Positions 28,306 through 49,496 of a stretch of DNA of 64,000 nt are shown one piece after another. Source of the stretch: Ktedonobacterales bacterium. Its GTDB lineage: Bacteria; Chloroflexota; Ktedonobacteria; Ktedonobacterales; DATBGS01. The position numbers were made by a program, and so were the translations under genes. Every line of letters begins with the position of its first letter. Positions within the stretch are counted from its first letter, which is position 1. The stretch covers positions 1 through 64,000 of the forward strand of contig DATBHW010000022.1 in the NCBI GenBank assembly GCA_036557285.1. Reading direction: 5' to 3'. Under the pieces are notes generated by a model. The model was not told where the DNA came from, did not search any database, and was given only the letters and a program-made list of their open reading frames with translations.

Positions 28306-28716
28306 GCTGCCATGCTCCTCTCTTGCCAGAGGATTGCTGTCGGCGCCGCTCCAGGCCGCCTCCCGTCGGTGTCGCAATCAGAATAGTAGGGGCATTGTAT
28401 CACGTCTGCTCTGCGCGTGCCAGAGTGTGATGTAGAGTGGTTCCACCAATTATCGGGGGTTGCCACCTGTAGCGCCGCCGTCCCGGCGGCTCGCCACCTG
28501 TAGCGCCGCCGTCCCGGCGGCTGGACGCTGCGCCAGGGCGAACGCTTGCCCTCCGGGCCACGGCGCCAGCAGGCCAACGCTGGCCGCCGGGACGGCGGCG
28601 CTACAGGTACACCGCCTCGCAGCCCCCTGCCGCCGGGACGGCGGCGCTACAGGCGGCCCCGCTTTTTGGCAGAACCATGTGGAGTGGGAGCGTCACACAA
28701 ATGAGGGAAGGTGAAG
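28306..28716. other. Intergenic region with a palindromic repeat cluster
   Basis: The spacer between the small minus-strand gene and the helicase gene. It is dominated by four copies of the dispersed repeat (28462-28653). The rest carries no clear gene. Confidence 0.5.
28462..28653. repeat. Composite palindromic repeat: two forward and two inverted units
   Basis: Units with core CTGTAGCGCCGCCGTCCCGG sit at 28462-28491 and 28493-28522 (tandem, 31-base period) and inverted at 28582-28608 and 28630-28653. A central segment (about 28523-28581) contains GACGCTGCGCCAGGGCGAAC and CCAACGCTGG. The same arrangement recurs at 48.2 kb with the centre in the opposite orientation, which suggests a mobile repeat rather than chance hairpins. 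Confidence 0.85.
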
Positions 28717-48198: not shown

Positions 48199-48317
48199 GC
48201 TACCTGTAGCGCCGCCTTCCAGGCGGCTCAACGCTGGCCTGCCGGTACGTTGGCATGAAGGGCAAGCGGTGGCTCTGGCGCAGCGGTGGCCGCCAAGATG
48301 GCGGCGCTACAAGTGGT
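48199..48317. repeat. Composite palindromic repeat, inverted arrangement
   Basis: A forward unit GCTACCTGTAGCGCCGCCTT (48199-48229) and an inverted unit (48286-48316, GGCGGCGCTACAAGTGG) enclose a centre with AACGCTGGCCTGC and GGCTCTGGCGCAGCG. The centre is the reverse orientation of that at 28.5 kb, so the two loci are copies of one composite element about 120 bases long. Confidence 0.8.
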
Positions 48318-48449
48318 GACTCCGATAGGTGGTGGAACCGTTATTTTTCGCTGCGTTGACGCGCCGCGTTTGTGCAGACTACAATCAAAGATGCCCAATG
48401 AAGAAATACGAGGAATCCCTCAGCATGGTCAAGAGTTTGGGAGGCTTTG

Positions 48450-49496
48450 ATGAGCACCGGCAGGCAGATTCGCCTTACGTCGCTCGCTAGCTGCGCTGGT
48501 TGAGCGTCTAAGATGGGGCCTTCGGCCCTGGCGCACGTGCTGCGTCCACTCACCCAGGCGGTGGAACATAACCACCCCGATCTGCTCGTCGGCCTTGCCA
48601 GCATTGACGATGCGGCGGTTTATCGCTTGAACGATGAGCAGGCGGTGGTGAGTACGGCTGACTTTTTCCCACCCGTCGTAGATGATCCCTATGCGTTTGG
48701 CGCGATTGCCGCAGCCAACGCGATGAGCGATGTCTATGCGATGGGTGGTGAGGTGCTGTTTGCCCTCAATCTGGTGGCTTTTCCCGATACACTTGAGCCG
48801 GAGATTCTCAGCGAGATATTGCGCGGTGGGAGTGATAAAGTGGCCGAGGCGGGGGGCGTCATCGCTGGCGGGCATACGGTCACGGATAAAGAGCCGAAAT
48901 ATGGTCTGGCGGTGACTGGCGTAGTGCATCCGCAGCATATTCTTACGAAGGGTCACGCCAGGATTGGTGATGTCTTGATCTTGACGAAGCCGCTGGGAAC
49001 CGGCGTCATTACGACGGCTCACAAGCGCGATCAGGTTGATGACGCCGACCTTCAGGCGGCCATTGCCAGCATGACCAGACTGAACCGCGACGCCTCGCGC
49101 CTGCTGCGTGTGTCTGAAGTCCATGCCTGCACCGATATTTCCGGCTTTGGGCTGCTGGGCCACGCCTGGGAAATGTCGCTGCAAAGCGAGGGTGGCATGC
49201 GCTTTGAGTGGGCGGGCCTGCCCTGGCTGCCGGGGGCCAGGCGCTGCGCCGAAGCCGGCTGTGTGCCTGGCGGCACTGGCCGCAACGAAGAGTTTCTGAA
49301 CGAGCATATCCGTCTGGCCGATGATCTGGGGGAGCCTGAGCGCAGCCTGCTCTTCGACCCGCAGACCTCCGGCGGCTTGCTCGCTGCCATCGAGTCAGCC
49401 GCCTGGCCGACGCTGCGCGAACGCTTTGAGGAAGCTGGCCTGCCCTGCTGGCTGATTGGCGAGGTGACGGCTGGCGCGGGTATCGAGGTGGTCTGA
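48450..49496 (+). CDS. selD: Selenide, water dikinase, selenocysteine-containing
   Basis: The full frame is 348 residues when TGA 48501-48503 is read as selenocysteine: MSTGRQIRLTSLASCAG, then U18, then ASKMGPSALAHVL. That places Sec18 and Lys21 exactly where SelD enzymes have the catalytic Cys/Sec and Lys (Cys17 and Lys20 in E. coli). The rest (ADFFPPVVDDPYAFGAIAAA; GGHTVTDKEPKYGLAVTGVV; TDISGFGLLGHAWEM) is a typical SelD that makes selenophosphate from ATP and selenide. GGGAGG precedes ATG 48450. Ordinary ORF calling starts at ATG 48513 and loses the active site. Confidence 0.9.
48501..48534 (+). promoter_or_regulatory. Selenocysteine TGA with candidate bacterial SECIS hairpin
   Basis: The in-frame TGA (48501-48503) is followed by GGGGCC (48515-48520) pairing with GGCCCT (48524-48529) around a UUC-containing apical loop 17 bases after TGA, with lower pairing GCG (48504-48506) and CGC (48532-48534). 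Distance and shape fit a bacterial SECIS that SelB recognises. Confidence 0.7.

Follow-up and report, generated by a model that had tools for sequence, protein, structure and literature searches.

Selenophosphate synthetase (SelD) is a well-known kind of selenoprotein. Selenocysteine (Sec) occurs in 19% of the prokaryotic SelD genes detected, always at the same position (PMC4561486), which in the Escherichia coli enzyme (PDB 3u0o) is held by Cys17. For the RNA signal, the bacterial selenocysteine insertion sequence (bSECIS), a published model sets a loop of 3–9 nt with a G in its first two bases, an upper stem of 4–16 bp, a loop placed 16–37 nt after the UGA and a minimum free energy of at most −7.5 kcal/mol (PMC13188914). 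Here we describe a selD gene in a 64,000-nt stretch (the window) of a Ktedonobacterales bacterium (contig DATBHW010000022.1, positions 1 to 64,000). It shares with bacterial Sec-SelD and with SPS2 the family, the Sec position, the conserved Lys three residues on and the alternation of Sec and Cys, and no difference of substance separates it from them; what is new is a further lineage and a corrected likely place of the RNA signal. The UGA at codon 18 is very probably read as Sec in this member of the Ktedonobacteria (Chloroflexota). The features concerned are the following.

48440–48445, + strand: ribosome-binding site GGGAGG, from the sequence.
48450–49496, + strand: selD, selenide water dikinase, 348 residues with the predicted Sec18, from the translation, TIGR00476 and E. 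coli SelD 3u0o.
48501–48503, + strand: putative Sec codon UGA, codon 18, aligned to the catalytic Cys17 of E. coli SelD.
48513–48515, + strand: internal ATG (Met22), start of a truncated SelD under standard open reading frame (ORF) calling.
48515–48529, + strand: proximal hairpin with loop UUC, from folds and pairing.
48530–48547, + strand: distal hairpin GGCGCA-CGUGC-UGCGUCC, loop 48536–48540, from wobble entropies, folds, pairing and the published rule.

The selD frame opens at ATG 48450, passes a lone in-frame TGA at 48501–48503 and ends at the stop TGA 49494–49496. Read through the first TGA, its product matches the TIGR00476 equivalog with 392.9 bits (cut-off 125) and is homologous to E. 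coli SelD over residues 5–344 (E = 1e-70). In the alignment with 3u0o, U18-A-S-K21 falls on C17-G-C-K20, that is, on the catalytic Cys/Sec and the following Lys of the N-terminal loop; E. coli Cys19 is Ser20 here. A sequence-only reading of the window had already described this start with its GGGAGG, the single TGA at codon 18 and the residue order CAG-U-ASK, had placed Sec18 and Lys21 on Cys17 and Lys20, and had warned that standard ORF calling would begin at 48513 and delete the active site. All of this is borne out, the last by the table-11 ORF, which runs from 48513 to 49496. Its central claim, a Sec-containing SelD, gains support from the family match across the TGA and from the codons found at position 18 elsewhere.

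Codon 18 was compared across the window's own genome and 30 genomes of the same order, and in the 80 best loci of a scan that covered named genomes, chiefly of Chloroflexota. The order sample holds 25 SelD genes, 23 with exactly one in-frame TGA, always at the same codon, and two without, from one genus, which have Cys. At the 80 further loci the codon is TGA in 72 and Cys in eight. Combined, the 105 loci, among which some from named genomes are the same species as order genomes, carry TGA (95) or Cys (10) and no other codon. Recurrence of the TGA at one codon in 23 of 25 order genes and 72 of 80 further loci excludes chance, and since nothing but TGA or Cys occurs there, we rejected a sequencing error or a pseudogene as its origin. 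Relatives that begin at the downstream ATG and have a Cys elsewhere, which the earlier reading had named as evidence against itself, were not seen: relatives keep the same start, and the Cys of the ten other loci stands at codon 18.

The nearest named relatives of this SelD are Thermogemmatispora and metagenome-assembled genomes (MAGs) of Ktedonobacterales, and a maximum-likelihood tree makes family f2 of the same order its sister group, with branch support of 100/98. On this tree the Cys label needs six changes, at least five of them on well supported branches. Because the Cys forms are scattered among Sec forms, Sec-to-Cys conversion, a process described previously for SelD (PMC1794560), is the natural reading, and the pattern in these sequences is consistent with it.

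We are highly confident that the gene encodes a selenophosphate synthetase with Sec as catalytic residue 18, delivered by way of SelB and a downstream hairpin. SelB, with GTP and Sec-tRNA-Sec, would bind the hairpin just 3′ of the UGA and deliver Sec at codon 18, and translation would terminate at the second TGA. SelD would then convert selenide, with ATP, into selenophosphate, and SelA would draw on this for more Sec-tRNA-Sec; SelD would thus help to make itself.

Two hairpins follow the UGA. The proximal one, proposed earlier as the signal, does exist: it starts 11 nt past the TGA, its loop lies 17 nt from the UGA and it folds at −10.3 kcal/mol. Its loop UUC, without a G in the first two bases, fails the bSECIS rule. 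The distal hairpin, with a 5-nt loop CGUGC, 6 bp, G in second place and 32 nt after the UGA, agrees with the model on these counts. An Rfam search of the region returned no element.

Constraint on the RNA is visible in the codons. Across 88 distinct Sec-SelD sequences, the mean z against synonymous recoding is −1.70 for the distal and −1.18 for the proximal hairpin, versus −0.08 to −0.40 for control stretches. Wobble entropy was measured in 121 conserved four- and six-fold codon columns of selD (80 distinct Sec genes): the three least variable are those of codons 31, 27 and 28, in the distal stem, while wobble bases in the distal loop and at a probable bulge vary freely. The distal hairpin is fully paired in 59 of 88 Sec genes versus one of ten Cys genes, the proximal one, if both of its registers are allowed, in 48 of 88 versus none of ten. 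Permuting codons among the sequences reduces all pairing counts of both hairpins; in the distal hairpin the wobble-dependent pair 35–39 is Watson–Crick in 54 of 88 sequences, compared with 36.0 ± 3.4 in the permuted sets (0 of 1000 as high), a test that leaves sequence relatedness in place.

Both hairpins are thus probably functional, as judged from these alignments. Measured against dinucleotide shuffles, the proximal one shows no special stability (z from 0.37 to −1.45); compared with synonymous-codon versions of the same peptide it reaches z = −2.64 in the window, and its stability exceeds synonymous recoding in Sec genes and not in Cys genes, so that it appears selected at the RNA level. 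With its spacing and its considerable stability here, it could itself be the SelB-binding bSECIS, a matter that concerns the signal only and not Sec; its loop, however, lacks the required G, and we regard this as an unlikely, if serious, alternative. The distal hairpin is the more likely candidate, also because many relatives have GCAGGUUCUGC at the place of GCAGGUCUGC in the bSECIS of E. coli fdhF, with GU in the loop. In the window the corresponding letters are CACGUG. Compared with fdhF, the distal loop lies farther from the UGA and a second hairpin stands between.

Among the Cys forms, loci L019 and L025 (genus g2, same order) combine a Cys-SelD and a decayed hairpin, a Sec-to-Cys conversion, with a TGA-containing formate dehydrogenase that has been kept. 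In an Armatimonadetes MAG (L223), a Cys-SelD retains a seemingly intact distal hairpin, likely a fossil bSECIS.

The earlier reading expected selA, selB and selC in the genome, and the first two are there, both uninterrupted: selA on contig C40 (53574–54968; TIGR00474, 580 bits) and selB on contig C52 (86934; TIGR00475, 322 bits). SelB has its GTPase domain, beta-barrel and two winged-helix domains (PF09106, PF09107).

What weighs against Sec insertion at codon 18 is the relatedness retained in the permutation tests, the energy of the distal hairpin folded alone (−7.2 kcal/mol, just above the published limit of −7.5) and, on the side of selC, that no tRNA-Sec was found in the assembly, a 5.1-Mb draft of 82 contigs and 97% completeness. 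The eight best matches to the Rfam tRNA-Sec model are ordinary tRNAs for Arg, Ser, Leu, Cys and Gly. Neither BLAST with a relative's tRNA-Sec, nor a covariance model built from 16 relatives, nor two specific patterns from relatives' sequences recovered one; the covariance searches scored part of the first-look candidates only, and the pattern searches spanned the whole assembly. A loose pattern of the tRNA-Sec 3′ end gave matches at control level, and ARAGORN, run over 2.2 Mb (43% of the genome), found no tRNA-Sec. In several genomes of family f2 the tRNA-Sec adjoins a HAD hydrolase gene; in the window's genome the homologue of this gene is followed by glyoxalase-like and transposase-like genes, with no tRNA-Sec.

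An assembly gap is the likeliest explanation, because 24 of the 30 same-order genomes have a clear tRNA-Sec (above the model cut-off, more than 60 bits) and because drafts of the order also miss selA or selB: among genomes with Sec-SelD, selA is missing in G015, G024 and G029, and selB in G024 and G029. ARAGORN, applied to 12 of the 24, called tRNA-SeC with anticodon UCA in all. The Secmarker paper traced missed tRNA-Sec genes to the same cause (PMC5330540). The tRNA-Sec gene would then lie outside the assembled contigs. Joint absence of selB and tRNA-Sec had been named beforehand as a ground for doubt; selB is present, tRNA-Sec was indeed not found here, and relatives with the same selD have it.

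Many relatives in families f2 and f4 encode a long formate dehydrogenase whose gene contains a single TGA; none of the five formate-dehydrogenase-like genes of this genome contains a TGA, and SelD may therefore be its only selenoprotein. Several selenouridine-synthesizing species whose sole selenoprotein is SelD have been described (Zhang et al. 2006, PMC1794560); selU was not found with the E. coli query in the 43% of the genome searched. A codon-usage scan for more genes with in-frame TGA (2.2 Mb) gave 203 candidates, mostly antisense shadow frames, which were dropped. That SelD is the sole selenoprotein of this lineage, so that the whole Sec machinery would serve only to produce the enzyme that supplies it, and that this machinery works with a tRNA-Sec diverged beyond the reach of current models, or with another UGA-reading tRNA, seems to us very improbable.

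Also very improbable is a decaying Sec trait, in which selC has truly been lost and the UGA of selD now terminates translation or is decoded by another tRNA. It would account for the missing tRNA-Sec in a 97% complete assembly and for the lack of a TGA-containing formate dehydrogenase, unlike many relatives; yet selA, selB and selD are all intact, and gaps can explain single absences. A truncated, Sec-less protein started at Met22, with the upstream part untranslated or decayed, is what standard ORF calling yields, but it would be without the catalytic residue and Lys21, whereas relatives share the start and show an unbroken, conserved run of residues ahead of the TGA, which itself is retained at one codon across a phylum, so that we give this almost no credence.

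Other features of the stretch and contig were noted. A palindromic dispersed repeat of about 110–125 nt lies upstream of selD (48202–48314) and again at about 28461–28619, with arms ACCTGTAGCGCCGCC... / ...GGCGGCGCTACAAGT. Its core 12-mer TGTAGCGCCGCC has 293 copies in 2.24 Mb of the genome, versus 0–2 for permuted 12-mers; it is a very abundant family resembling repetitive extragenic palindromes (REP) or miniature inverted-repeat transposable elements (MITE). A Cobalamin riboswitch (RF00174, 1227–1445, − strand, 104 bits) is found just upstream of ORF 137–1297 (− strand), by appearance a substrate-binding lipoprotein. Near 96.36 kb of the same contig (C22; L147:8359), what appear to be rpoB and rpoC, both very long ORFs, share a frame with one TGA between them, and look like two ordinary adjacent genes.

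The analysis corrects gene calling at the active site of SelD and leaves existing knowledge of the enzyme unchanged. A large SelD alignment lets the bSECIS be located by wobble conservation. Ktedonobacteria join those lineages whose SelD commonly carries Sec.
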